Position numbers and translations under genes: made by a program
The notes under the pieces: model-generated
Told to the model about the DNA's origin: nothing
What the model saw: the letters and a program-made list of their open reading frames with translations, nothing else
Database searches by the model: none
Shown here: piece by piece, positions 1,459 through 20,694 of the stretch
Position numbering within the stretch: position 1 is the first letter of the stretch
Layout of the letters: each line of letters begins with the position of its first letter
Source: a virus
Length of the DNA: 20,694 nucleotides
Strand: one strand, 5' to 3'
Virus record (IMG/VR): IMGVR_UViG_3300044673_000583
Location: 1-20,694 of that record

Positions 1459-3837
1459 CTACTTCTCCTTTTGGGCGATCTCGGCCCGGACCTTCCTGGC
1501 GATCTCCAGCGGCAACCGGTCGATCCGCTCGTTCAAGATGTCCCTAGACTTGTTGGCGGCGGTGCCGGGGTTGTACTGGAAGCCGGGATCGATGCCGTTG
1601 GGGATCTCGAAGGAACGCCCCTGCTTGTCGGTCCAGGTGTAGCTGCCGTCGTTGGGTGCGGTGCGCTTGGCCTTGGCCCCCAGCCGGGTGATATCCCGCT
1701 CACCGGCGGAGAAGACCTTGCACTTGCAGCCCCAGCCGTTCTGGGGGTAATGGGTTGACCACCAGGAGTCATCCGCCGGGAGCACCGTGCCGTCCCAGGA
1801 CAGATGCAGCACCCTGGGGTGAACGGAATCGCCATGCTTGTAGAGCAGATAGGGGCGGGTGGCAAGCACGTCCGGGTCGGTGATCCCCTGCCAGCGACCG
1901 GCGTTGTATGCCTGCCGGGTATTGGTCTCGTAAACGACACGGGTCCGCCAGTTGCGCCCACCGACGTATTTCCAGCCGTAGCGCTCGACAATGGTGTCCC
2001 ACTGGTTGCGGAAGTCGGCGAGAGTGAGCCCCTGGGCGATGGTCTGATCGACCGCCTCGCGCAGATCGGCGAGCAGCTCCCCCTTCATCGCCCCGGCGAT
2101 CATGAATCCTTTGGCATGGGCATCGAGGAAGAGATCGTTCCACTTCTCGGTGGGGATGTTGACCTTGCCCCGGAAGAAAGCGATGGCCTCGGCAAAGGGG
2201 AGGCGCAGGGCGGAGGTGATCGGCGACTCGGCAAAGGAGTAGCGGGAGAACTCGGCGAAGGAGGCGCCCGCTTCGGAAGCGGCTATTTCGTCCTGGACCT
2301 CGGCCCGGCCAAGCAGAGTGGATAAAAGCAGGGCATCACGGACGTGGGCCGCCATGGGGGCGATATCGAGCTTGGCCGACTGCTTGAGTAGATCGTCGCG
2401 CAGGTCGATCAGGTTGCCGGCGCCGTCAACGATCTTTCTGGCTGCCTGGATCCATTTGTTGAGGAGCGGCTCGGCTGCCGTTTCGGCCTGGACGGCAAGG
2501 AGGTCGGCATTGTCGGGGGTGGCGTCGCCATTGTCGCCAGGCTCGGCAAAGGCGCTCTGGTCATCGACGATGGGGGTATCCTTCGGCGTTGGCGCGGGGG
2601 GCACCTCCTTGGCCGGGGCCTCTTCCACATCCCCCTGCTCCAGGTTGTAGGTGCGCTCGAAGTAGGCGCTTGACAGCCGCTTGCCGCTCCGCGCCAGGGA
2701 GGCGGTCAGCTTGTCGTCACGCTCGGCCTGCTTGAGGTCCACCTCCTTTTCGATGATGAAGGTGAAGCGGGGCGCCCCTTCGCTGGAGCCCCAATTTTCC
2801 TCGCAGATGTAATCGATGACCTGGTTGTAGGCTTCCTCCACCAGGCGGACGTCGGCGTCACGGATATCCTGGCGCACCTCGATGGAAAGCTTGTCATCCC
2901 CCAGCTTGCCCCCCGAGGTGGATTCACCCACCCCGGCATGGCCGAGCCAGACGGTTGAGATGGCGCTGTTGGCCTCCTGGATGATGCCGCGATGCAGATC
3001 GCTGGTTGCCCCCTTGGAGCCGCTCTCCTTCAACTCGACGCTGCCGTCGTCGGGGATCACCGCCACGCCGTCCTGGATCATCCTTTCAAGGATGTCGAGA
3101 AAATCGTTGATCTGCTCTTGGCTGGCGCTGCGGGGCAGCTTGCCGATGGGCCAGGTCTGGCCGAATTTTTCGGCATACTGGACCAGGTAGCGCCAGCCCC
3201 CCCGTTTGAAGGTCACCGGCCAGAAACAGCGGCTATTGAGGCCGAGGCCGTAGGGGTTCTCGTAGCTCGCCTCATTGGTTGGGCAGATGAAGCGCCGCTT
3301 GGGGAGCTCCTCACCCGACAGCAGGTTGGTGCGGGTGAGGAAACGGAGCTGGTTTTCCTGATTGAAGACGAACCAGCGCGGCGGCTTGGGCACGATGTCG
3401 ATGGGGATGTTGATCCCCTGCCACGGAGCCACCAGGATCTCGGTCGGGCAGTAGCCATAGGCGCGGGCGCCGCGAATGAGTTGCTCGGTGATCCTCGTTA
3501 ACGGCAGCTTGGTGAAGATCTCCTTGATAGCTTTGGCCTGCCGGTTCTTGGCCTTGCCCTGGTCGATGTCCCAGGCGAGTGCCAGGGTGGCGTTGATCCT
3601 GTTGGTGATGCCGCCGGCAACCCGGTCATCGGTCATCAGGTCGCTGTAGACCCGGATGTCCCGCCCCTGGGCCTTGAGGATCGGGTCGGGGTTGGGAAGA
3701 TAGAGGTTGGTCAGGCCGAAGTAATCGAGGGTGCGGGAGCGGACCGCCAGCTCCTGGGAGAGGGAGGTCGGCTGGGCCGGATCTTCGGCAAACTGTACGA
3801 ACTCGCGTTCGTTTATCCAAAGGCCGTTACGCCGCAT
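1459..3837 (-). CDS. Portal (DUF935, Mu gp29-like) fused to MuF head protein (Mu gp30-like)
   Basis: One open frame of about 790 residues joins two proteins that are separate in Mu. Residues 1-430 are the DUF935 portal: a conserved start (NGLWINEREFVQF), the IRVYSDLMTDDRVAGGITNRI block, the KFGQTWPIGK segment and a GHAGVGESTSGGK loop. Around 415-440 a Pro/Ala/Asp-rich linker (EEAPAKEVPPAPTPKDTP) leads to a helical region, and residues 630-710 hold the MuF/SPP1 gp7-like core: YETNTRQAYNAGRW, then HPRVLHLSWDG, then GWGCKCKV. Start 3837 has AGGA seven bases upstream; an ATG six bases earlier (3843) is also possible. Either overlaps the terminase stop. The portal forms the DNA channel and MuF is a minor head protein of the same complex, so fusion is structurally sensible. 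Reading frame is intact throughout. Confidence 0.88.
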   Translation of the reverse strand: MRRNGLWINEREFVQFAEDPAQPTSLSQELAVRSRTLDYFGLTNLYLPNPDPILKAQGRDIRVYSDLMTDDRVAGGITNRINATLALAWDIDQGKAKNRQAKAIKEIFTKLPLTRITEQLIRGARAYGYCPTEILVAPWQGINIPIDIVPKPPRWFVFNQENQLRFLTRTNLLSGEELPKRRFICPTNEASYENPYGLGLNSRCFWPVTFKRGGWRYLVQYAEKFGQTWPIGKLPRSASQEQINDFLDILERMIQDGVAVIPDDGSVELKESGSKGATSDLHRGIIQEANSAISTVWLGHAGVGESTSGGKLGDDKLSIEVRQDIRDADVRLVEEAYNQVIDYICEENWGSSEGAPRFTFIIEKEVDLKQAERDDKLTASLARSGKRLSSAYFERTYNLEQGDVEEAPAKEVPPAPTPKDTPIVDDQSAFAEPGDNGDATPDNADLLAVQAETAAEPLLNKWIQAARKIVDGAGNLIDLRDDLLKQSAKLDIAPMAAHVRDALLLSTLLGRAEVQDEIAASEAGASFAEFSRYSFAESPITSALRLPFAEAIAFFRGKVNIPTEKWNDLFLDAHAKGFMIAGAMKGELLADLREAVDQTIAQGLTLADFRNQWDTIVERYGWKYVGGRNWRTRVVYETNTRQAYNAGRWQGITDPDVLATRPYLLYKHGDSVHPRVLHLSWDGTVLPADDSWWSTHYPQNGWGCKCKVFSAGERDITRLGAKAKRTAPNDGSYTWTDKQGRSFEIPNGIDPGFQYNPGTAANKSRDILNERIDRLPLEIARKVRAEIAQKEK

Positions 3838-5245
3838 CGTCATATCCTTTCAGTATTTTTGTGGAATTGCGCGGCGACCGAGACCCAGCCCACGTTGGAC
3901 CAGCGTCGGTACCAGCAGCATGTATGGCCAGGGCTAGCGCCCAAAACCGGTCGGCGTGCCCGTTTTCGCTGCGCTCAGCAGTAAAACGGATATTCCCGGC
4001 GGCCGTGGTTTCTTTGGTCACTGCGCGGAGGTCGGCGCGGATCTCGGGCTTGTAGGGGATGCGCAGCTTTTTGTCTTCCATATGGCCGCGCACTGGATAG
4101 GCCAATTCTTCCTTGACCCTGGTGTTAAAGGTAATGTTCTCGTAGCGGTACTGGCCGTACCGTTTCTGGGCATCGTCGCCCCAGCCAATCCCGAGACCGG
4201 TGTAATCCTGACAGGTGCGGCGCATGTAATCGAGCCAGGGCCACAGCACCTTTTCCTGATCGGGCTTGGACATGTTGCGCAGCTCGAGCACCTTGCGGGT
4301 GTAGAGCACGTCCCCCAGAAGTTCCAGGAGCCAGAGGACGGTGAGGTCTTTCTTGCGGCCGATATCGATGCCGACGAAGATCTGCTTGCCCCTGCAGTCC
4401 TCTGGACTGTCGAATTCCCATTGTTCCTGGCTGCCGTATTCGCAGCCGGCGATCAGGTCGTACTCGAGGAAGGCGCTGGCATCATCTGCCGGCACGCACA
4501 TGTACTCCTGGAGAAACGATTCTTCATCGGCGCAGCCCCCCTTAATGAAGTCGAAGTATTTCGCTTCGTCCATCTCCTGGACTTCGTGGTCGGCGGGGAG
4601 CGACTGCTGCAATTTATAGAGGAAGCCCTGATCGAGGGCATCCTGGAGAGTGACCCGGTGCAGGCTGATCTTTTTCGGATTTTTGTGCTCGCGGATCTCT
4701 CGGACCAGCTGATTGAAAAAGTTGGCGCTGCCTCGATGGGTGCTAATAACTTCCATATTTCCGCCCCAGGTAATACCGGGGTAGGCGATGGACCAGAGCT
4801 TACGAGGATCTGGATGCAAGGCGAATTCGTCGAGGATACGACCTCCACGTTTTCCAGCCTGAGCATCAGGGTTGCTAGACATGCTGTGGATTCGTCTTCC
4901 ATTAGCAAAATGAAGTACGTAGGCACTTATCTTTTTCTCCTCATCGATAACCTTGAAGCCCAGATCCTCAGCGGCAATCTGCAGCACCTTAGCAAACATC
5001 TTGCAGTCTTCGATGACTAGGCGGGCCTGCAGGTCATCGCGGGAACTGATCCACTGGTCCCATTTGGCCCCGGCCTCAGCGGTGCGCTCATCGGCGGCAT
5101 AGGCTGTGGACCAGGAGAGGCCAATCTGGCGAGCCTTTTCCATGAGCTTCAATCGGGAGCGATCGACGATCCATTTCTCCTGGTAGGGAAGAAAGAGCCC
5201 GGCGGGATTGGCGGGTATGCATTGGGCTTTGACTGGTTTCATCAT
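3827..5245 (-). CDS. Terminase large subunit (Mu gp28-like)
   Basis: A 472-residue DNA-packaging motor that cuts the phage-host junction and pumps DNA into the prohead. The ATPase half shows the variant Walker A of terminases, EKARQIGLSWS (residues 36-46), and a Walker B with catalytic acid, RILDE (136-140). The RNase H-like nuclease half begins at IFVGIDIGRKKDLTVLW (D294, D300) and ends with the conserved acidic block HADRFWALALA (D432). It starts at 5245 inside an ATGA overlap with the DUF3486 gene and ends inside the portal gene start, so small terminase, large terminase and portal-MuF are translationally linked. Length fits the family (Mu gp28 is about 550 residues, so slightly short). 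Family call is strong. Confidence 0.92.
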   Translation of the reverse strand: MMKPVKAQCIPANPAGLFLPYQEKWIVDRSRLKLMEKARQIGLSWSTAYAADERTAEAGAKWDQWISSRDDLQARLVIEDCKMFAKVLQIAAEDLGFKVIDEEKKISAYVLHFANGRRIHSMSSNPDAQAGKRGGRILDEFALHPDPRKLWSIAYPGITWGGNMEVISTHRGSANFFNQLVREIREHKNPKKISLHRVTLQDALDQGFLYKLQQSLPADHEVQEMDEAKYFDFIKGGCADEESFLQEYMCVPADDASAFLEYDLIAGCEYGSQEQWEFDSPEDCRGKQIFVGIDIGRKKDLTVLWLLELLGDVLYTRKVLELRNMSKPDQEKVLWPWLDYMRRTCQDYTGLGIGWGDDAQKRYGQYRYENITFNTRVKEELAYPVRGHMEDKKLRIPYKPEIRADLRAVTKETTAAGNIRFTAERSENGHADRFWALALAIHAAGTDAGPTWAGSRSPRNSTKILKGYDDAA

Positions 5246-5811
5246 TCTGCCATCATCAGCACGTCGCGGCGGATCATCTGGATTGCCTCGGGGGTGACGC
5301 CGGCGGCGGTTGCGGTTTTCTCAATGGTCTTCGCAGCTTCTTCCAGGGCCTGTTTCTTGATCTCAGCAGCCCGTTTGACGTTGATGGTTGCGGACTGTTC
5401 CAACCGCTGGGTGGCAAGGGCCAGGGCTTTGACCTGGTCGATGGTGGCGGAAAGTGTTTCGGGATCCTGGATGTCGGCATCCTGTATCTTTAGGGTGATA
5501 TCGAAGGCCAGAGTGCGGAGGATCTCGTTGATCAAGAGGCCCGTCTGCCCCTGGGGCGCAGCGCCGACCTTGGCAATGAACATCTCGGATATCTCGCGGC
5601 TTTGCCGTAGCTTCTGGCCCACTTCCTCCATGCGCATTGAATAGCGGTTGACAGCGCTTTTGCTGATGCGGTCGTCATGCCCTTCTTCCTCCAGGAGCGC
5701 ATTGATCTTTTCCGTTACCTCCAGCTGGGTGACGCGGGGATCCTGGAGGAGACGCTGCAACTCGCTCTTGATTTCGGGGGGTAGTTTTTCAATGCTTGAT
5801 GTCTGGCCCAT
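5242..5811 (-). CDS. DUF3486 protein (Mu gp27-like), probable small terminase
   Basis: A 189-residue, mostly helical protein that matches the DUF3486 family (Mu gp27), thought to be the small terminase subunit that recognises the packaging site. The N-terminus has the family pattern SSIEKLPPEIKSELQRLL followed by a helix-turn-helix-like stretch (VTQLEVTEKINALL...ISKSAVNRYSMRM, about residues 27-62). The rest is long amphipathic helix, probably the oligomerisation part, with an Ala/Lys-rich coiled coil near 135-170. I chose ATG 5811 because GGAG lies seven bases upstream and it comes one base after the preceding stop. A longer frame to 5901 exists but has no ribosome site and lies inside the upstream gene. 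Ends in an ATGA overlap with the large terminase. Confidence 0.85.
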   Translation of the reverse strand: MGQTSSIEKLPPEIKSELQRLLQDPRVTQLEVTEKINALLEEEGHDDRISKSAVNRYSMRMEEVGQKLRQSREISEMFIAKVGAAPQGQTGLLINEILRTLAFDITLKIQDADIQDPETLSATIDQVKALALATQRLEQSATINVKRAAEIKKQALEEAAKTIEKTATAAGVTPEAIQMIRRDVLMMAE

Positions 5812-5812
5812 A

Positions 5813-6109
5813 TCAGCTCCGGGGACTCGGGCGCTTAACGCCGGGGATGGTGGCGCAGCCGGTGGCCACGTCGATGCCGCGCTGGTTGATGGTGGCCACA
5901 TAGATGCCGGCCACTTCCTCCAGGCTCAAAAGCCCCTGCTCCTCAAGCCAGCGCAATTCAGTTTTGACGCGGTCACGGCTGATGGAGTGGCCGAACTTGC
6001 CGACGATCACATGAATGATGGATTCATTGCAGCTGTAGCCATTGGTCTCCTCCAGCGTGCGGAGGATGATCAGGCGGATGTCTTCGGTAGCCACGTCTTT
6101 GAAATTCAT
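5813..6109 (-). CDS. Mu gp26-like protein (VpaChn25_0724 family), winged-helix-like
   Basis: A 98-residue protein found in Mu-like phages just before the small terminase. It begins MNFKDVATEDIRLIILRTLEETNGYSCNE and contains a winged-helix-like arrangement: helices around 8-22 and 23-37, then SRDRVKTELRWLEEQGLLSLEE (about 44-65), in the position of a recognition helix followed by a wing. This suggests nucleic-acid binding, perhaps as an accessory to packaging, but no function is established for the family. The start is in an ATGA overlap with the preceding DUF2730 gene and has GGGAGG upstream. Its stop is one base before the DUF3486 ATG. Confidence 0.75.
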   Translation of the reverse strand: MNFKDVATEDIRLIILRTLEETNGYSCNESIIHVIVGKFGHSISRDRVKTELRWLEEQGLLSLEEVAGIYVATINQRGIDVATGCATIPGVKRPSPRS

Positions 6110-7329: not shown

Positions 7330-7676
7330 GGCGCCTCCTGGGTACCCAAGCCGGGGCGGATGGCAGGGGGCGGAGTGTAGAGATCGGGCCGGCCCCCTTC
7401 CTGGGTTCCGAAGCCGGGTCCCCTGACAACAGGGACATCGTCAGAGACTGTCGGCGACGTGGCGAGCAGCTCGGTTTTCTTGGCGCTCCCCTCGCTGGAG
7501 CCGAAATAGTAGCCATAAACATCCTTCACCAGAGTGACGAGGCAGCCGAGGAGGATGAGCAGGATGTCCTTGACTGTCGGGTTGATGCCGGGGGAATAGA
7601 TGAGGATGAAGACCACGGCAAAAAAGCCGGCGATGACCAACAAACCCAGTAGTGCTTTGAAGTCGAACTTTTTCAT
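7326..7676 (-). CDS. Holin-like membrane protein
   Basis: A 116-residue protein with two hydrophobic segments (about residues 8-28, LLGLLVIAGFFAVVFILIYS, and 34-52, VKDILLILLGCLVTLVKDVY) and a YGYYFGSSEGS turn typical of small phage holins that follow the endolysin. The long polar tail contains two near-copies of a PGxGTQE motif (PGFGTQEGG and PGLGTQEAP). A holin would form membrane lesions that release the endolysin. Start 7676 has a strong site (AAGGAGG, five bases before ATG) and follows the lysozyme gene by 20 bases. It ends in an ATGA overlap with the next gene. Assignment rests on topology and neighbourhood. Confidence 0.65.
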   Translation of the reverse strand: MKKFDFKALLGLLVIAGFFAVVFILIYSPGINPTVKDILLILLGCLVTLVKDVYGYYFGSSEGSAKKTELLATSPTVSDDVPVVRGPGFGTQEGGRPDLYTPPPAIRPGLGTQEAP

Positions 7677-7696
7677 CGAAACCTCCTTGATGTTGG

Positions 7697-8173
7697 CTAG
7701 GCGAGACCCGACCAGAGCTTTGCCTCCCGAGCCCGGCGTTCTTCCAGGTCGTCACAAACCTGGCCATCGACATAGACCCAGCGGGCCATCTGTTTCGGCA
7801 CGGCATCATACTGGCCCTTGTTGAGCAGCTTCAGCATCGTGCTGTTGGTAAAGCCGCCGGTACCGGCGTTGAAGGTAAAGGAGACCAGGGCGTCAAACTG
7901 GTTTTGAGAGAGCGACACCTTGACGCCGTTTCTGACCGCGTCCTCTGCCGGGTGCAGGTCCTGGGCAAGAAGGTCCATGGCCTGCTGGGTGGTAATGCCG
8001 TCGCCGTATTTGATTGCCGTGCCGTTGATGACGATCTTGCCAGAGCTGAGTTCCGCCTTGGTGAGGAGGTGACCGACCCCGATCGTCGGCAGCCCGGCCT
8101 GATCCTTGTAGACGTGCAAGACGCATCCTTCTTCATTCTTCAGGGCTACCAGCCCCTTGCTGCTCATGTTCAT
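7697..8173 (-). CDS. Endolysin, T4-type lysozyme (glycoside hydrolase 24)
   Basis: A 158-residue muramidase that cuts the peptidoglycan glycan strand at the end of the lytic cycle. The catalytic triad of the T4 lysozyme family is present with correct spacing: Glu15 (NEEG), Asp24 (VYKDQAG) and Thr30 (PTIGVGH), then HLLT. The later block QNQFDALVSFTFNAGTGGF (about residues 84-102) is also diagnostic. I chose ATG 8173 because GGAGAGGG lies about five bases upstream; the upstream ATG at 8200 has no ribosome site. No signal peptide or signal-anchor segment is seen, so release by the holin is expected. It is the first late gene, downstream of a candidate Plys. Confidence 0.9.
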   Translation of the reverse strand: MNMSSKGLVALKNEEGCVLHVYKDQAGLPTIGVGHLLTKAELSSGKIVINGTAIKYGDGITTQQAMDLLAQDLHPAEDAVRNGVKVSLSQNQFDALVSFTFNAGTGGFTNSTMLKLLNKGQYDAVPKQMARWVYVDGQVCDDLEERRAREAKLWSGLA

Positions 8174-8189
8174 AGAACCCTCTCCCCAG

Positions 8190-8214
8190 CCCTCTCCCAT
8201 AAAGGGCGAGGGGG
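8190..8214. repeat. GC-rich hairpin upstream of the endolysin start
   Basis: CCCTCTCCC (8190-8198) can pair with GGGCGAGGG (8204-8212) with one mismatch around a five-base loop. It lies just before the endolysin ribosome site. CT-rich repeats of this general look occur between genes in many bacterial genomes; whether this is such a dispersed element cannot be told from one copy. Confidence 0.4.
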
Positions 8215-8400
8215 CTTTAATTTTGGACCGGGGCGGGGTCGGGTTGTAAGCCCTCCCCGCCTGGTGTCGGCACTATTGCCGCCGGTCGTTGCTGCTACAG
8301 GTGGCCTGGTCTTGCCCGGTAGTTTTTTAAAGAGTTGCCCCGGCGCCGGGAGACTAGTCCGGACACCGGGGGTGCAAAGGAGGAACTTCGATCGGGTATG
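8201..8400. other. Non-coding leader between candidate Plys and endolysin
   Basis: About 200 bases with no supportable gene on either strand. It holds the 12-bp palindrome CCCGGCGCCGGG (8339-8350) and other GC-rich short dyads. If Plys is where proposed, this would be a long 5' leader of the lysis transcript, which is unusual and could hold RNA structure. No tRNA or known riboswitch pattern was recognised. Confidence 0.45.
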
Positions 8401-8447
8401 AACTTACTAAATGGGGGAGGGTTTGATCAGTGGAAATGTTTCAAAAA
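8401..8447 (-). promoter_or_regulatory. Candidate late promoter Plys with activator dyad
   Basis: On the minus strand 8447-8423 matches the element upstream of the protease gene at 21 of 25 positions, including TTTTTGAAA, TTTC, ACTGA and CAA in the same register. Sixteen bases downstream is TAAGTT (8406-8401), a weak -10, at the same spacing as in the other copy. In Mu the C-activated Plys lies before lys, as here. Function is inferred from conservation and position; the -10 is the weakest part of the claim. Confidence 0.5.
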
Positions 8448-8481
8448 GAAAAGCCCCTGAACCGTGAAGGTCAGAGGCTTT
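8443..8481 (-). terminator. Intrinsic terminator of the ParB-like/methyltransferase operon
   Basis: On the minus strand AAAGCCTCTGA (8481-8471) pairs at 10 of 11 positions with TCAGGGGCTTT (8460-8450) around a 10-base loop, followed by TCTTTTT. It lies 53 bases after the methyltransferase stop. No T-run follows on the plus strand, so it works in the gene direction only. Its T-run is shared with the candidate Plys activator element. Confidence 0.8.
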
Positions 8482-8533
8482 ATAGAGGAAATAAAGTGCC
8501 TTATATACTGAGAAAAGATAGTTGTAAAGAATA

Positions 8534-9415
8534 TTATGCGGCTACGATACCAAGCTTTTCATAAACTGGTGGAGGGATTTCAATGTTGGAAATCAGTAGT
8601 TCCTGTGCTCTTCTGCTGGTGCGAACTTTATAGTCTAGGTATATGGGCTGGATTTCATTTGCAGAGTAAAATTCTCTTATTTTCGGATGGTCATCATAGC
8701 TTATTAACCATGGGAAATTTTGGGCTCGAATAAAAAATGCTAAGTCCTCATGTTGCCTGTCGTTATAAAAATAGCGATAGAGCTCTTTCCCTTGTACATA
8801 GTATGGCGGGTCTACGTAAACAAAGTTAAATCCAGAAGAAATCCGCCTTACATTGTTGTCCATAAACGAAATCGCATCCCCATAATGCAATTCTATACGA
8901 TCTGAGTATCGGGCTATGTTTTGTATTTGAGTTATAAGCCTGTCTTTCTTGAATCTACAATCGATCCCATAGTTTGATGATTGATTCCTTCCGCCGATTG
9001 GTCCAGCTTTTAAAATGCCAGAGAAATTAGTTCTGTTGAAAAAAAGTCCAGCCAATCCAAAGAGGAGTAGTTCATGTAAATCGTTGGGCGGATCAATTGC
9101 CCGTCTATAATCTTGATAAGAATCCCATGTTTCTAGAGACACATCTAGGTTGTAGATTTCCTCACAAAGTTGTTCGTTCATTCGTAAAACGCTATACCAG
9201 AAAGCATAGATGAGAGGATCTCTTTCGAGCCAAATTGCATTGGCAATAAAACCTTTATTAAAGAGGTCAAGTGATACCGAAGCCCCTCCTACATACGGCT
9301 CATAAAAAGTGCAGCCAATCAGGAGGTGTGCTTCCATAACATCAGCAATGTAATTTGATAATAACGTTTTCCCTCCAGGATATCGCAACGGGCTAATCGG
9401 GTTACCGTTAAACAT
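8534..9415 (-). CDS. D12-class (Dam-like) DNA adenine N6-methyltransferase
   Basis: A 293-residue enzyme transferring methyl from S-adenosylmethionine to adenine N6 in DNA. All main motifs of the D12 class are in order: RYPGGK (residues 11-16), EPYVGGAS (39-46, cofactor loop), FFNRTNFSG (125-133) and the catalytic VDPPYY (201-206, DPPY motif). Length fits Dam/DpnM-type enzymes. The target sequence cannot be read from the protein; GATC is one possibility for the class. The ATG overlaps the end of the ParB-like gene by 8 bases, so the pair is co-translated. Base composition is clearly more AT-rich than the flanking phage genes, suggesting separate acquisition. The role may be phage DNA protection (as Mom in Mu), control of the cassette, or the modification half of a defence system. 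Confidence 0.9.
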   Translation of the reverse strand: MFNGNPISPLRYPGGKTLLSNYIADVMEAHLLIGCTFYEPYVGGASVSLDLFNKGFIANAIWLERDPLIYAFWYSVLRMNEQLCEEIYNLDVSLETWDSYQDYRRAIDPPNDLHELLLFGLAGLFFNRTNFSGILKAGPIGGRNQSSNYGIDCRFKKDRLITQIQNIARYSDRIELHYGDAISFMDNNVRRISSGFNFVYVDPPYYVQGKELYRYFYNDRQHEDLAFFIRAQNFPWLISYDDHPKIREFYSANEIQPIYLDYKVRTSRRAQELLISNIEIPPPVYEKLGIVAA

Positions 9416-10901
9416 CAGCTACTTCCTCCACAGGCTCATTTTGTCCGGCCAAGATATGATTGATAATAGGACGGAGACATTTAGCAGCTCTTTCTATTAC
9501 CTCAGGGGAAGCTTCCGCCCACCGTCCATGGACAACGAAGTCCAGTTGGTCTTTAAGGCCGGTACTCCTGAAATTGGTGAGCTGATCACAAATCCGGGGG
9601 ATCAAGAAAACATCATTGTTTTTGTTTGCGCAAAATCGCATCAAGGCTTCCAATCCAACATCCTTGAGTTTCCCCTTGTTATTGTCTTTTATAAATTGAT
9701 GGAGTGCTGATGTTTTCTTTGCAACCTTAATCTGGAAGTCTAGTGCCGATTCAAAAAGCCCACGTAGTAACATTGCAGCAGCTACTGGCATGTCTTTATG
9801 ATCTATTCGAGTAATTTCACCAGTAATGGCGATTAATCGGTCATCTTGAACCGAGCATACTAGATTTTCAAAAAATACAGAGGCTGTGGCACTCTTGGGG
9901 GCACTGGGCTTATTTGCCTTAGATGATGACTTCCGATCAGTCGAACTGTTTGAATTTTTAGGCGGAGGTGATGATTCATCTTTACGATGAGATGAAGGTG
10001 GCTGGTTTTCCTGTTTGCTAGTATTGACTACGATGGTTGTATCAGAAACTGGAAATGCATCAAAAATTTCTTCTTTAGTGGTCCTGGTATTGGCTATCGG
10101 CTTGTTATGATTGCTCCTGTCCGGCAGGAGAAAGCTCCTGGCTATATGCCGCATGTATTGATTGAATAGAGTTTTATCAAGTATCGTCTGCGGCCACTCT
10201 TGTTCATCAAAACTAAGTCCAAGTTTTTCTTTAACACCTTTGATGTTGAAAAATCGTGTATAGGGGTTGGTCTTTAAGACTTGATCAGTGAGGATTTCAT
10301 TTTCCTTATGATCCCAGCAATCGAGATCAATTATATATCTCACCAGATGGTGGTTTCTAATATCTTCGCGTACCTTGCCTTTGCTACTCGATAATTTTTC
10401 AGCAATCTGTTCGATGTCGTAACCTGTAGCGAATAGTCGAGAGGCTCGTCGCATTTTGGCAGTGGTATTCCATTTAATAATACCCTGCTCCGTATGTCTT
10501 TTTGTGATTACAGGTTCTGCATCATCCCGCGATGGTGCTATATCCACTTTTATTTCGGTCAGCGCTAAGATAAGGTCTTTACTAGATTTGCGGATACTTT
10601 TGCGATACTTTTCTGGGATCAACTCAGATTTCAGTAGAAGTTGACAGGCACAAGTACGGCGATTCCCCTCTAGGACCACATATTTATTGTTTTCCTTGGT
10701 GACAATAATCCTTTCGCCAGGCAGCAGGCTTCCATAATCCGCAATATCCCTCGCCAACTCGACAACTCGCTCATGCGCCAGCAGCTTAAGGCGGATTTCC
10801 TCCTGTGATGCGCCATTTGCAACTTCAATGCGGGGGTTTTGGATATCCAATAGTATCCTCAGAGGATTAAGCTTCGTTTCCTTCCAACCAGTTTGCGGCA
10901 T
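9408..10901 (-). CDS. ParB/Srx-domain protein with C-terminal helical (possibly HEPN-like) domain
   Basis: A 497-residue protein of three parts. Residues 8-125 form a ParB/sulfiredoxin-like domain: LNPLRILLDIQNPR, then a helix with LAHERVVELARDI, and the nucleotide-binding box VVLEGNRRTCACQLL (75-89), where ParB proteins have GERR. Residues 145-192 look like a helix-turn-helix (RRASRLFATGYDIEQIAEKLSSS...VREDIRNHHLVRY). Residues 292-340 are a Ser/Lys/Pro-rich linker, and 341-485 a helical domain with MLLRGLFESALDF and LDFVVHGRW, resembling the LxxxxH pattern of HEPN-type domains. ParB folds bind or hydrolyse CTP, or act as nucleases in some phage and defence proteins. Strong ribosome site (AAGGAGG) before ATG 10901. 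Paired with the methyltransferase. Specific function unknown. Confidence 0.75.
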   Translation of the reverse strand: MPQTGWKETKLNPLRILLDIQNPRIEVANGASQEEIRLKLLAHERVVELARDIADYGSLLPGERIIVTKENNKYVVLEGNRRTCACQLLLKSELIPEKYRKSIRKSSKDLILALTEIKVDIAPSRDDAEPVITKRHTEQGIIKWNTTAKMRRASRLFATGYDIEQIAEKLSSSKGKVREDIRNHHLVRYIIDLDCWDHKENEILTDQVLKTNPYTRFFNIKGVKEKLGLSFDEQEWPQTILDKTLFNQYMRHIARSFLLPDRSNHNKPIANTRTTKEEIFDAFPVSDTTIVVNTSKQENQPPSSHRKDESSPPPKNSNSSTDRKSSSKANKPSAPKSATASVFFENLVCSVQDDRLIAITGEITRIDHKDMPVAAAMLLRGLFESALDFQIKVAKKTSALHQFIKDNNKGKLKDVGLEALMRFCANKNNDVFLIPRICDQLTNFRSTGLKDQLDFVVHGRWAEASPEVIERAAKCLRPIINHILAGQNEPVEEVADV

Positions 10902-10936
10902 CTTATCCTCCTTACCACTGAAGCTAAAATGTCACA

Positions 10937-10966
10937 ATTTTACATTAATTTACTCTATGTTAACAA
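10937..10966 (-). promoter_or_regulatory. Candidate promoter of the ParB-like/methyltransferase operon
   Basis: On the minus strand TTGTTA (10966-10961), an 18-base spacer and TAAAAT (10942-10937) stand about 35 bases before the ParB-like ATG, in an 88-base AT-rich gap after mor. This would place the start site near 10930 with a short leader containing AAGGAGG. There is no terminator between mor and this gene, so read-through from the middle operon is also possible. Confidence 0.5.
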
Positions 10967-10989
10967 GGAAAATCATTAAAGAAATTGAC

Positions 10990-11340
10990 TTACGTAGGTT
11001 TTAAAAAGCTGTCGAAAAGCCCCTTCTGATCCCGAGCCTGGGCAATAGGGCGGATGATGCGGATCCTGTTTCTCACCTGGCGGCCGGTGAGGTCAAAAGC
11101 TTTGCCTACCTCATCATAGTTGCTGCCGTTGAACATCTCCCACATCTGCCAATCGCGGTTGTCCAATGTGTCGCTTTTGGGTATGTAGAGGCTTTCGCAG
11201 CCCCCCCATTTTTCGCGGATAACGCCGACGACGCAGTGGGCAATGGAATTGGCCTCAGCAATGGGCTTGCCCAGTTCTTCGACCAGGGCAGCAATGAAGT
11301 GCTCGCGGATCTCGGTGAGGGTTTCGGATTTCTTGGCCAT
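10990..11340 (-). CDS. mor: Mor/C-family transcription activator
   Basis: A 116-residue member of the Mor family, the dimeric activators of Mu middle (Mor) and late (C) promoters. The dimerisation part has the family hallmark CVVGVIREKWGGCESLYIPK (about residues 36-55), and the C-terminal helix-turn-helix is NYDEVGKAFDLTGRQVRNRIR (about 74-94). It is the last gene of the early/middle operon: its ATG overlaps the gemA stop (TAATG) with AGGAGG eight bases upstream. Only one member of the family is in the window, so this protein is the best candidate to activate the shared late elements near 581-605 and 8423-8447. Whether it corresponds better to Mor or to C cannot be decided from sequence alone. 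Confidence 0.88.
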   Translation of the reverse strand: MAKKSETLTEIREHFIAALVEELGKPIAEANSIAHCVVGVIREKWGGCESLYIPKSDTLDNRDWQMWEMFNGSNYDEVGKAFDLTGRQVRNRIRIIRPIAQARDQKGLFDSFLKPT

Positions 11341-11780
11341 TACTTGGTCCTCCTGCCGTGCCGCTTGGCGTCATAGGTAAGGGCGGCGACGATCCTCTTC
11401 AGCTGCTCGGGCTGGCACCATTCGACCTTATCCACCTTGAACATGTTCCTGGCGATGCCGGTGGCATAGTCCCAGGGGCGCCCGGCTTCGGCGAGCAGCG
11501 CCTCGATCTTTTTCAGCAGCGCCTTGCGGTCGCCGCTTTCCATGTTGCGGGGCCGGCCGGGGTAGCGGCCTTTTTGCTGCAGCTTTACCCCCATCAGCTC
11601 TTCGATATGCTGGATCAGCTGCAGGAGCTGCCGTTCGGTGAGCTTTGATTTTGACTCGACTTGGAACTGCACCCAGAGGATGTCCCGGTAGCGGTCATCA
11701 TCAATGCCAGCCTCTGCCAACAGGATGTGAATTCGACCGTAAAGCTTCAGACGGGGGGATTTAAGTGCTGCTTTAGTCAT
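11340..11780 (-). CDS. gemA: GemA-like regulatory protein (Mu gp16, DUF1018)
   Basis: A 146-residue DUF1018 protein, the family of Mu GemA (gp16), which modulates host gene expression during lytic growth. Typical features are the N-terminal LKLYGRIHILLAEAGIDDDRYRDIL (residues 11-35), the SKLTERQLLQLIQHIEELMG helix (54-73), the basic KGRYPGRPRN turn, and the C-terminal repeat of helices ending WCQPEQLKRIVAALTYDAKR (120-139). The ATG overlaps the preceding HTH gene by ATGA with GGGAG eight bases upstream; the stop overlaps the mor ATG. Immediate neighbourhood to mor matches Mu gene order. Confidence 0.85.
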   Translation of the reverse strand: MTKAALKSPRLKLYGRIHILLAEAGIDDDRYRDILWVQFQVESKSKLTERQLLQLIQHIEELMGVKLQQKGRYPGRPRNMESGDRKALLKKIEALLAEAGRPWDYATGIARNMFKVDKVEWCQPEQLKRIVAALTYDAKRHGRRTK

Positions 11781-13639: not shown

Positions 13640-13883
13640 TGGATATCTCCTTTTGTAGTCTCAATTGTTCGGCCAGGTCCATGACCGGCTGGACGATGTC
13701 GCCGAGTGCCATCAGCAAGCCGGCATGGTCGTCGAATTCCTGCTCGTCTTTGAAGTTGCCCCGGTAGCAGTCGTAACCCTTCGGCCCCCGCAGGTAGCTT
13801 TCTTTGATGGCGACACCATCCTGGGTATAGGCGGTGATCTCGAAGCCGATCGAGGTGATGGTGACACAAGTCTGAATGATCAT
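13623..13883 (-). CDS. Small early-operon protein, unknown
   Basis: An 86-residue protein beginning MIIQTCVTITSIGFEITAYTQDG, with a beta-rich N-terminal half and a helical C-terminal half (LLMALGDIVQPVMDLAEQLRLQKE). Start 13883 is preferred to the ATG at 13895 because it makes an ATGA overlap with the 49-residue gene just upstream, the pattern used through this operon. No family recognised. It overlaps the DUF3164 gene by 17 bases at its 3' end. Confidence 0.6.
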   Translation of the reverse strand: MIIQTCVTITSIGFEITAYTQDGVAIKESYLRGPKGYDCYRGNFKDEQEFDDHAGLLMALGDIVQPVMDLAEQLRLQKEISNESSN

Positions 13884-14029
13884 GGCCGCCACCATGAGGA
13901 GAAGCGTGGGGGCTGGAGGCTGCCCGAGCAGACCAGCTTGGTGGCGAGGCTAACCTTGCGGTAGTCGCTGATTTTCCGGGCCTGCTGATCTTTGCGTCTT
14001 TTCAACCATTTAAAGATGCGTTTAAACAT
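13880..14029 (-). CDS. Small basic protein, unknown
   Basis: A 49-residue, strongly basic protein (MFKRIFKWLKRRKDQQARKI at the N-terminus, an amphipathic cationic helix), with a C-terminal part rich in Ser, Pro and Trp. ATG 14029 has a strong GGAGG eight bases upstream and the stop overlaps the next ATG by ATGA. The cationic helix could bind membranes or nucleic acid; in Mu, small early proteins such as Kil occupy this kind of position, but no sequence similarity can be claimed. Confidence 0.55.
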   Translation of the reverse strand: MFKRIFKWLKRRKDQQARKISDYRKVSLATKLVCSGSLQPPRFSSWWRP

Positions 14030-14042
14030 CGTTTACCCTCCT

Positions 14043-14381
14043 TTAACAGCGGCCTTCGCCGCCGAGAAATGGGATGATCCTGTTCTTGATCGAGCGTGGC
14101 CGGCCGGCCAGATCCGGGTGGAGACGGACGACGTTGCGGCGGATCTCCTCGTTGAGGAGAACGGTGTCCGATTGAGGCGGTTCGGACTGGCGCTTGATGG
14201 CCTCACCCATTGCCTGGGACAGTTCCTTGATCTTCGCTTCTTCCTCAGCTGTCAGCTTTATGGCCGAATGTTTCCTTTGACGGAACTTTCTCACTTGCAT
14301 TAAGATCAGGGCGGTCAGGGAGCCACCAAGGCCAACGCCTGCCCAGAAGATCGGCAGGATCCAGAATAGCGATACCTTCAT
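14043..14381 (-). CDS. Single-pass membrane protein with charged tail, unknown
   Basis: A 112-residue protein with an N-terminal hydrophobic segment (residues 4-28, SLFWILPIFWAGVGLGGSLTALILM) followed by a basic stretch (RKFRQRKHSA) and a charged helical tail. The orientation is probably N-out with the tail in the cytoplasm, by the positive-inside rule. No family recognised. The start at 14381 is in an ATGA overlap with the preceding gene and has GGAGG seven bases upstream. A membrane protein in the early operon might be involved in superinfection or host takeover; that is only inference. Confidence 0.6.
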   Translation of the reverse strand: MKVSLFWILPIFWAGVGLGGSLTALILMQVRKFRQRKHSAIKLTAEEEAKIKELSQAMGEAIKRQSEPPQSDTVLLNEEIRRNVVRLHPDLAGRPRSIKNRIIPFLGGEGRC

Positions 14382-14707
14382 GGCTTACCTCCATTGTTTG
14401 GACATTTCTGGCAAGCCAATCGCTGCCGGCTGTATTCCGCGCTGATCATGAGGAACGGTTTTTTCCGTTCCTCGGCACACGTTGCCAGGGGAATGGATCC
14501 CGTGGACGGGCAGTCAACCAGCAGCCCCCCATATACCTCGATGACTCGCTTCAGAACGTTTTCAATGCGCCCTTTGTAAGTACCGTGCAGCACCTGGTTA
14601 ATTGCGGACGTTGAATAGCCGAGTTCCTCGGCGGCCCTGACCTGACCTCCTTCGCCATATTCAGCAACCTTGTTGCGGAGCAGCTCCAGTTTATCGGCCT
14701 GTGTCAT
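14378..14707 (-). CDS. Helix-turn-helix regulator with C-terminal CxxC
   Basis: A 109-residue protein. Residues 1-60 look like a helix-turn-helix: LLRNKVAEYGEGGQVRAAEELGYSTSAINQVLHGTYKG, where the AAEELGYSTSAINQVLHG stretch fits the recognition module of lambda-repressor-like proteins. The C-terminal part carries Cys residues, including a final ACQKCPNN motif. Start 14707 was chosen over 14731 because it gives an ATGA overlap with the preceding gene and has GGAGG seven bases upstream. Transposable phages of this type often carry such a protein after the B gene; target unknown. Confidence 0.7.
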   Translation of the reverse strand: MTQADKLELLRNKVAEYGEGGQVRAAEELGYSTSAINQVLHGTYKGRIENVLKRVIEVYGGLLVDCPSTGSIPLATCAEERKKPFLMISAEYSRQRLACQKCPNNGGKP

Positions 14708-18958: not shown

Positions 18959-19186
18959 TTACGCAGCGTAGCGTTCAGGCCATATTTTTTCCGGCCTCTT
19001 GCCGATCTTTTTGGCGATCACTTCTTCCCACTTTGGTGATGGCTGGATGGTTACCAAGTGGACGGCCTGGCGAGTCACTTTGTGCTCCCTAGCAATGGCT
19101 GAAAAAGACGAACCGACCATATGTAACTGGTAATTGATCCATGCCCGACGTTGTTCGGGATTTTTTGGTATTCGCTGCCTTGACAT
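18959..19186 (-). CDS. ner: Ner-like DNA-binding protein
   Basis: A 75-residue protein of the Ner family, the Mu negative regulator of early and repressor transcription and the first lytic gene. It keeps the family pattern: RRAWINYQLHMVGSSFSAIAREHKVTRQAVH (helix-turn-helix, residues 14-44) and the C-terminal IAKKIGKRPEKIWPERY (56-72), which is nearly diagnostic. Size equals that of Mu Ner. ATG 19186 was chosen because AAGG lies eight bases upstream and the longer frame to 19297 crosses the operator region. A good -35/-10 pair ends just before this ATG, so the mRNA may be leaderless or nearly so. Confidence 0.88.
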   Translation of the reverse strand: MSRQRIPKNPEQRRAWINYQLHMVGSSFSAIAREHKVTRQAVHLVTIQPSPKWEEVIAKKIGKRPEKIWPERYAA

Positions 19187-19193
19187 GTCTAGC

Positions 19194-19222
19194 CTTATAA
19201 ACCCATTTATTGACCCAGTCAA
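19194..19222 (-). promoter_or_regulatory. Early promoter (Pe) candidate
   Basis: On the minus strand TTGACT (19222-19217), a 17-base spacer and TATAAG (19199-19194) match sigma-70 boxes closely. Transcription would begin near 19187-19186, at the ner ATG itself. The promoter abuts the operator cluster (nearest site 19234-19244), consistent with repression from there. TTGAC-CCA-GTCAA (19210-19222) is also a short dyad. Confidence 0.7.
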
Positions 19223-19233
19223 TATAATATTTG

Positions 19234-19393
19234 GGTTTACAATTTTTGTATTTGTGAATTGTAAACCTCGATGCACAAGAAATTGCATTTTCTGCAATAA
19301 GCACAGCTAGTTCTTGGAATTGTAAACCTCAGGCTTTATCGATGTGGCAGGTTTACAAAATCAATAAATTGCCTTGACAGTAAATTGTAAACT
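19234..19393. promoter_or_regulatory. Operator array, five GGTTTACAATT-type sites
   Basis: Sites: GGTTTACAATT at 19234-19244, AATTGTAAACC at 19257-19267, the same at 19318-19328, GGTTTACAAAA at 19350-19360 and AATTGTAAACT at 19383-19393. The first two form a perfect 11-bp inverted repeat with a 12-base spacer. The array fills the gap between the divergent ner and repressor genes, so it should bind the repressor, Ner, or both. In Mu, this region also serves as the transposition enhancer; whether it does here is unknown. Confidence 0.75.
19314..19342 (+). promoter_or_regulatory. Possible repressor promoter
   Basis: TTGGAA (19314-19319), a 17-base spacer and TATCGA (19337-19342) precede the repressor ATG by about 65 bases and overlap the operator at 19318-19328, as expected for autoregulation. 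Boxes are moderate only. Confidence 0.35.
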
Positions 19394-19406
19394 TTGGGAT
19401 CCAAAA

Positions 19407-20093
19407 ATGGACTTTGGCGGCAGATTGAAATTGATAAGAGGGGATCTGAAGCAAGAGGATTTCGCGCGAATGATCGGCTGCAGCAAGTCTACTTACGGTA
19501 ATTGGGAAAGGGGAAGCCAGTATCCGAACGCTGAAGATATCGCTAATATCTTAAAAGCCTTCCCTGATATTAACGCTACGTGGCTTTTGATCGAAGAAGG
19601 GCCAATGAGGCGATCAGATCTGCCGGTTTCCGCGGACCACCTTGCCCATTATGCGGCTACAGAGGAAATAGAGCAGGATTACGTAATGGTGCCACGCTAT
19701 GATGTAAAGGCTAGTGCTGGCGGTGGTGCCGTAATCCAGAGCGAGCAGGTTGTCGATTATCTGGCCTTTAAATCAGAGTGGGTTAAGAACTCCCTCGGCA
19801 TTTCAAAAGACCATCTAGCGCTTATTTCGGTCCTTGGCGATAGCATGGAGCCAACCTTGAGCAACGGTGATCTGATTCTTATCGACTTGCGCGCAACTCA
19901 CATCCAGGACAACGCCATTTATGTCCTATCATTCGACAGCGCACTAATGGTGAAGCGGATCCAGCAGAAGCTCGACCGTACGGTTATAGTGAAGAGCGAT
20001 AATGCGGTATATGAACCGGAGATCATTACACCGGATAAGGTGGAGCAATTAACGATTGTTGGCCGTGTAGTGTGGTGTGGACGGAGAATGTAA
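19407..20093 (+). CDS. LexA/CI-type phage repressor (XRE HTH plus S24 peptidase)
   Basis: A 228-residue repressor that should hold the prophage silent. Residues 4-60 form an XRE helix-turn-helix (LKQEDFARMIGCSKSTYGNWERG). A linker contains a self-cleavage site, VKASAGGGAV, with Ala104-Gly105. The C-terminal S24 peptidase has catalytic Ser146 (LGDSMEPTL) and Lys183 (LMVKRI), 37 residues apart as in LexA. This means RecA-dependent self-cleavage and SOS induction are likely. ATG 19407 was preferred to the TTG at 19374, which has no ribosome site and would add residues inside the operator. Only a weak GGGA lies upstream. Transcribed divergently from ner and followed by a secreted-protein gene. 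Confidence 0.9.
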   Translation: MDFGGRLKLIRGDLKQEDFARMIGCSKSTYGNWERGSQYPNAEDIANILKAFPDINATWLLIEEGPMRRSDLPVSADHLAHYAATEEIEQDYVMVPRYDVKASAGGGAVIQSEQVVDYLAFKSEWVKNSLGISKDHLALISVLGDSMEPTLSNGDLILIDLRATHIQDNAIYVLSFDSALMVKRIQQKLDRTVIVKSDNAVYEPEIITPDKVEQLTIVGRVVWCGRRM

Positions 20094-20103
20094 AGGAGAG
20101 GGT

Positions 20104-20694
20104 ATGAGAAAAAGATTAGTGATGTTAATCTGCCTGCTAATCACGGGTACCAATTTATGGGCGGCTGGGCTCGGTGAAAGGTTCTCCGTTTTCGAAAAAA
20201 AATGGAACAAAGGCTTCCGTCAGGAGTTTTCTGTAGGCGGGGCATATACTGATGTCTACATTGGGAGTGATAAAAAGCATTCAGTTGCTTATTCTAAGGG
20301 CGGGTGGAATGACTTTGACGGGCGGATCGGCACAATCCATGGCGAGACGTGGGGCATGTTCGGTGTTCCGGGAAACCAGTTGCCGACCACGCGGCAATTC
20401 CTTACCGGCATAAAAGCCATGATGCCTGCAGATAGTAAATTAATAAGCAAATTTGCGAGTAGTAAAGCTGGATACCTTACGGAGGTGTATTTATTCAAAT
20501 CGGTCTCTCTGTCAAAATTACCCGGCATTGCCAAGTCCACGGCATATGATCAGGAGACCAAGTCCATCGGCAGATTTGTACTCATTGTCAACCACAATAT
20601 CGATGACAGTAACTACGTCATAAATTATACGCTCACCCTGGGTAGTGGTGAAAGCGACATTTGGGGTATGAAAAAAGTTAAAACTGGATTGTAA
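20104..20694 (+). CDS. Secreted protein of unknown function (possible lysogenic moron)
   Basis: A 196-residue protein with an N-terminal signal peptide (MRKRLVMLICLLITGTNLWA, cleavage likely after WA near residue 20) and no lipobox. The mature part is rich in aromatic and Gly residues, beta-like, with repeated polar/hydrophobic alternation (VGGAYTDVYIGSDKKHSVAY, FVLIVNHNIDDSNYVINYTL). It would be exported to the periplasm or beyond. The ATG is 10 bases after the repressor stop with AGGAGAGGG just upstream, so it is co-expressed with the repressor in lysogens, the usual setting for a lysogenic-conversion gene. The stop is the last codon of the window. I do not recognise the family. Confidence 0.7.
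   Translation: MRKRLVMLICLLITGTNLWAAGLGERFSVFEKKWNKGFRQEFSVGGAYTDVYIGSDKKHSVAYSKGGWNDFDGRIGTIHGETWGMFGVPGNQLPTTRQFLTGIKAMMPADSKLISKFASSKAGYLTEVYLFKSVSLSKLPGIAKSTAYDQETKSIGRFVLIVNHNIDDSNYVINYTLTLGSGESDIWGMKKVKTGL

Follow-up and report, generated by a model that had tools for sequence, protein, structure and literature searches.

Genes A and B of a Mu-like prophage, situated at the junction between mor and the endolysin gene, belong by their sequence profiles to PD-lambda-5, an already described anti-phage family. Membership in this family, the operonic pairing of the two genes, their foreign base composition and a site that in sister phages holds either nothing or other genes were established by sequence comparison, and the domain anatomy of A by structural modelling. 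Taken as a whole, it is probable that the pair forms a PD-lambda-5 cargo which protects the lysogen through a methylation-sensing A protein with an HEPN-like effector domain, and a lysogen-expressed defence of the RM+Abi type is its most likely role.

The window, i.e., the whole stretch of DNA analysed (20,694 nucleotides), is a fragmentary 20.7 kb IMG/VR virus record (IMGVR_UViG_3300044673_000583). Its genes follow a Mu-like order (transposase, MuB-like ATPase, GemA, Mor, lysozyme, terminase, portal), the terminase being assigned via its position and sister-phage matches. An S24/HTH repressor is encoded on the plus strand at 19374-20093, followed by an ORF with no Pfam match (20077-20694), which runs off the window end. 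No Rfam RNA was found within 7600-11600.

The first-pass annotation, made from the sequence alone, had described A and B as two genes overlapping by 8 bases, more AT-rich than the flanking phage genes and placed between mor and the lysozyme promoter, with an intrinsic terminator and a promoter of their own. Both ORFs were found as described on the same strand, and the Pfam matches of the two border genes confirmed their placement (Table 1). The GC content was 0.431 for A and 0.398 for B vs. a length-weighted 0.578 for the remaining window genes (z of about -3.6 and -4.4, respectively) and the GC3 values were 0.40 and 0.37, no other large gene of the window being as AT-rich; a short gene at 18959-19297 is likewise AT-rich (GC of 0.437). 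The terminator hairpin (about 8450-8481, followed by a T run) had a folding energy of -19.3 kcal/mol vs. a shuffle mean of -10.7 (z = -3.6), its stability being matched by 1 of 200 shuffles. It was absent from the list produced by the consensus scan, whose limit on loop length it probably exceeds. The promoter fared worse: the 9/12 match exists, but when those 88 bases were shuffled 2000 times, 617 of the shuffles, about one third, scored equally well, and the promoter count across the region was not above expectation, so that a promoter belonging to the cassette is unproven.

Table 1. Coordinates of the A–B gene pair, its borders and the predicted domains and residues of A in the window.
Feature	Position	Strand	Basis
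Gene A, PD-lambda-5 A-type protein, 497 aa	9408..10901	-	PADLOC, PHROG, AlphaFold, structural matches
Gene B, PD-lambda-5 B-type predicted D12 class N6-adenine DNA methyltransferase, 293 aa	8534..9415	-	Pfam, PADLOC, PDB, motifs
mor, upstream border of the cargo site	10990..11340	-	Pfam Mor, 4.5e-12
Phage lysozyme, downstream border of the cargo site	7697..8200	-	Pfam Phage_lysozyme, 1.6e-41
Intrinsic terminator 3' of B, hairpin of 11-13 pairs, then T run	8443..8481	-	Folding vs. shuffles
Candidate sigma-70 promoter 5' of A, TTGTTA-18-TAAAAT, weak	10937..10966	-	9/12 consensus match, not above chance
Predicted ParB/Srx-fold domain of A, residues 7-137	10491..10883	-	Invariant residues, KorB/ParB matches with Z 8-10
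Predicted helical/helix-turn-helix region of A, residues 146-258	10128..10466	-	AlphaFold, KorB 8qa9
Predicted disordered Ser/Pro/Lys-rich linker of A, residues 293-339	9885..10025	-	pLDDT <50
Predicted C-terminal HEPN-like domain of A, residues 350-490	9432..9854	-	Domain model, HEPN structural matches
R380 of A	9762-9764	-	Invariant
H458 of A	9528-9530	-	Invariant

The identity of the pair was revealed by the PADLOC models, in which the matches of A and B to both PD-lambda-5 components lay far above all alternatives. For B, PD-Lambda-5_B was matched at 5.9e-89 over residues 7-283 and beat every Type II MTase model. For A, the best PD-Lambda-5_A match reached 1.5e-39 over residues 9-406, with two dozen models of this component in agreement, and PHROG 9592 was matched at 4.4e-75. 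The methyltransferase assignment of B was backed by Pfam MethyltransfD12 (2.3e-14), by the PDB entries 7m6b (1.4e-12) and 2dpm, the DpnII methylase (9e-5), and by the motifs PLRYPGGK, EPYVGG and DPPY, whose columns are invariant. Nothing reliable was found in A by Pfam, and its sequence gave only chance PI3-kinase matches in the PDB. An A-type ParB-like protein, a B-type D12 methyltransferase and operon adjacency, the features of PD-lambda-5, are thus all present. The first-pass annotation was right in calling A ParB-like and B a D12 methylase and mistaken in regarding the pairing as one that could not be named. PD-lambda-5 is an E. coli system found by experimental phage-resistance selection, which gives broad protection and was described by its discoverers as an RM+Abi system in compacted prophage form (Vassallo et al. 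2022, PMC9519451). No mechanistic study of it was found in the literature searched.

A conserved pairing outside the phage had been proposed as a check, and it was indeed observed. A profile built on A picked up 80 loci in bacterial and archaeal genomes and another 71 in viral contigs, and a D12 methylase starting at most 150 bases downstream on the same strand was present in 60 and 44 of them, respectively, some of the unpaired loci being contig ends. Among 80 control loci found through lysozyme, neither A nor B was detected. Judged by gene neighbourhood, the pairing of A with B is the rule, the opposite of the refuting condition named in the first-pass annotation (homologues usually occurring apart). 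The dependence is weaker in the reverse direction, since among 40 viral loci with a strong B match A was adjacent in 22, near in 5 and missing in 13, which shows that B-like methylases occur on their own as well. When A, B or Mor was used as a single query sequence against viral contigs, no relatives came up, whereas profile scans succeeded. The closest full-length homologues (52-54% identity) came from Geobacter, Sulfuricella, Aquitalea and Nitrosospira genomes, where the pair likewise exceeds the flanking DNA in AT content; further pairs were present in Marinobacter phage AS1, Paracoccus phage Pkon1 and plasmids of Vibrio and Kosakonia, and the nearest annotated phage homologue shared about 24% identity with A. 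In the Aquitalea genome (L164, G004:C1:125570-129486), a second A-like gene was seen at a distance of about 1-2 kb, which hints at two PD-lambda-5-like units side by side.

An AlphaFold model of A built with 60 homologues (pLDDT of 88) resolved the protein into the parts listed in Table 1, the helical/helix-turn-helix region reaching to about residue 285. N22, R24 and the P-motif G79-N-R-R82-x-x-A85 were invariant in 60 diverse homologues. KorB (8qa9) aligned to residues 7-289 with a Z of 10.1 over 192 residues; the P-motif, the fold and the structural matches to ParB, KorB and Srx assign this half to the ParB/Srx (ParB-CTPase) fold, and it is predicted to act as a ParB/KorB-like NTP switch. 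A role in plasmid partition was considered and rejected, as no ParA gene was found among the window proteins scanned and the genomic context is wrong.

The C-terminal domain, modelled alone (pLDDT of 92.9), resembled HEPN proteins: Csm6, AbiA, sacsin HEPN and HEPN-MNT toxins were the top-ranked matches with Z of 7.2-9.5, values made less certain by the middling Z that helical bundles give by chance, with unrelated bundles starting at a Z of about 5 in this search. Foldseek E-values for the domain alone were weak (0.2-6). Since sequence searches and a profile of the domain gave nothing convincing, the HEPN call rests on predicted structure. Outside the P-motif, the best-conserved residues of A include R380, E384 and H458; E384 was also listed as invariant, and R380 and H458 were kept in 58 of 58 sequences otherwise sharing little. 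H458 ends the helix preceding the last one, which is the position of the HEPN catalytic histidine (PMC3710099). The Rx4-6H motif was not found in A, as no conserved arginine lies 4-6 residues upstream of the invariant H458; the invariant R380 sits in an earlier helix. Lack of the canonical arginine is a variation described for the PaREP1/8 HEPN family, represented by PDB 2q00 (PMC3710099), and 2q00 was among the top matches of the domain. According to the model, the domain has the HEPN fold, subject to the helical-bundle caveat, and RNase activity is plausible, the uncertainty arising from the missing arginine of the motif while the histidine is kept.

The unpaired A homologues were mostly short (about 355-390 aa) and devoid of the C-terminal domain. 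Of the short A genes, 28 adjoined a gene for a member of the gp96 family of phage Wphi, whereas 133 long A proteins had the HEPN-like domain and no separate gp96-like partner; the two occurred together in none, several of the short-A/gp96 loci being near-duplicates and their counts not independent. The methylase beside the gp96-like gene was m5C in 16 loci and D12 in 9, usually on the opposite strand. Three-gene cassettes of this kind were noted in phage Wphi (gp98/gp96/mth, L003:96-3266), at L007:4977-8136 and in 27 similar loci. The gp96 family keeps a D254...Q274 motif, and its single PDB profile match is a restriction endonuclease entry (4f0p, E of 0.02), which we take to be MspJI. The combination of a short ParB-like protein, a gp96-like protein and a methylase of the m5C or m6A type appears to be a sister system to PD-lambda-5, and the simplest reading of the split of 28 vs. 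133 suggests a shared ParB-like sensing half with exchangeable effectors. More tentatively, the ParB-like half and the methylase may form a modular platform for self/non-self discrimination, probably an NTP-loaded clamp reading DNA modification, with interchangeable effectors (a fused HEPN-like RNase or a separate MspJI-like nuclease of the Wphi gp96 type) and m6A or m5C methylases; we regard this extension as possible, with doubts prevailing. That the A-type protein either carries the HEPN-like domain itself or is accompanied by an endonuclease-like protein offers a testable clue to how PD-lambda-5 works.

The cargo site was examined in 80 sister phages collected by a terminase search (62-87% identity; mor included in 23). 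A was present in none of these 80 loci, many of which are fragments. In at least six of them (L325, L326, L335, L351, L369 and L384), the endolysin gene, belonging to four different enzyme families in these phages, follows mor after 130-250 bases, and on gene order these junctions are empty sites. In L330 (IMGVR_UViG_3300029959_001625, 2516-5850), the junction holds a two-gene cargo on the opposite strand with a GC content of about 33%, whose 945 aa and 164 aa products match PADLOC candidate PDC-M28 A, B and C; it is another candidate defence operon. Antirepressor-like genes (Bro-N, Rha or AntA) lie between Mor and the endolysin in L342, L355, L358, L337 and L387. The empty sites, the L330 cargo and the antirepressor-like fillings indicate that the junction is a cargo site in which defence genes can reside, much like the known hotspots of P2. 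In L372, a papain-family (Peptidase_C1) gene occurs shortly after mor (5093-5833), and L342 carries a different D12 methylase beyond the terminase (13711-14469), cut by the locus end and with no A gene. No direct repeats flanking the cassette were found, so the insertion mechanism is not visible, and the nucleotide alignment with sister phages was too diverged for base-by-base insertion borders. The proposal that the pair is a moron cassette gained support from the foreign composition, the lack of A in the sister phages and the empty sites.

In the likeliest mechanism, B would methylate adenines of the lysogen DNA, marking it as self, and A would serve as a ParB/KorB-like NTP-dependent DNA sensor, whose N-terminal half would remain inactive on self DNA carrying the methyl mark. 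Incoming phage DNA, unmethylated or evading methylation, would switch the state of A and thereby release or assemble the HEPN-like domain. This domain would probably cleave RNA and stop phage production or the growth of the infected cell, so that the prophage would shield its host against competing phages. The coupling of the methylation state to A is proposed on the grounds of the pairing.

The first-pass annotation had offered several interpretations, among which a moron with lysogen-expressed defence is supported by the composition, the sister phages and the PD-lambda-5 match, while the anti-restriction and toxin readings stand as unproven rivals. Classical restriction-modification, with the ParB/Srx domain of A acting as a DNase and the C-terminal domain just dimerising or binding nucleic acid, is unlikely. 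Some ParB/Srx proteins nick DNA (cited in PMC12839542), the methylase motifs of B are intact and the sister architecture swaps the C-terminal domain for a protein with a restriction-enzyme-like D..Q motif, possibly a DNase. However, sequence searches of A against Pfam, NCBIfam and the PDB matched no restriction-endonuclease or HNH domain, which still leaves room for a DNase of the ParB fold, and the conserved R380, E384 and H458 lie in the HEPN-like fold. Moreover, clones with an RM escape phenotype were dropped from the Vassallo screen, in which PD-lambda-5 was retained (PMC9519451).

Orphan D12 methylases are frequent in phages, the site adjoins the late genes and, as noted above, close B homologues without A occur in viral contigs, which would suit an anti-restriction moron, with B methylating the DNA of the phage itself against host restriction, as mom does in Mu, and A being a regulator or packaging partner. 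A homologous system, however, protects cells from phages (PMC9519451). Such a role is also at odds with A being longer than B, retained with it and equipped with an effector-like domain, and with the presence of the pair on plasmids and bacterial chromosomes, which renders it very improbable. Restriction-modification systems can be addictive, and the pair might be a selfish one, in which a toxin A would be held back by B's methylation of the chromosome and the prophage would be stabilised in place of cell defence. HEPN domains are common as toxins (PMC3710099), but the characterised relative came from a phage-resistance selection (PMC9519451), and we give this option very little weight; addiction and defence are compatible with each other.

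The cassette adds a divergent phage-borne copy to PD-lambda-5 and points to testable residues (R82, R380, H458 and DPPY); the value of the analysis lies in the naming of the pair, the HEPN-like domain with its residues, the exchange pattern and the cargo site. With PD-lambda-5 (PMC9519451), the pair shares both components, with strong profile matches, their adjacency, the D12 methylase and the prophage location, but the window copy is very divergent in sequence, is carried by a Mu-like phage at the mor–endolysin junction and its activity is predicted only. The Wphi gp98/gp96/mth cassette, which overlaps PADLOC PDC-M38A, resembles the pair in its ParB-like N-terminal half and in having a DNA methylase close by, but lacks the HEPN-like domain, uses the separate gp96-like protein with D254/Q274 and often carries an m5C methylase on the opposite strand. 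Fusions of ParB with HEPN, and HEPN operons that also encode a ParB nuclease and a DNA methylase, were already listed in comparative work (PMC3710099), as were HEPN-containing loci linked to R-M: Saro_3948 joins ParB and HEPN in one protein as in A, and the MAE_28990 operon combines a ParB nuclease, HEPN and a DNA methylase. Both are likened to the pair by domain content, and the window domain is devoid of the R of Rx4-6H. PrrC–PrrI is comparable in its way of working, as a modification system joined with an HEPN suicide effector, but PrrC is fused to an ABC ATPase, is guarded by a Type I R-M complex and is not homologous over the sensor part of A.
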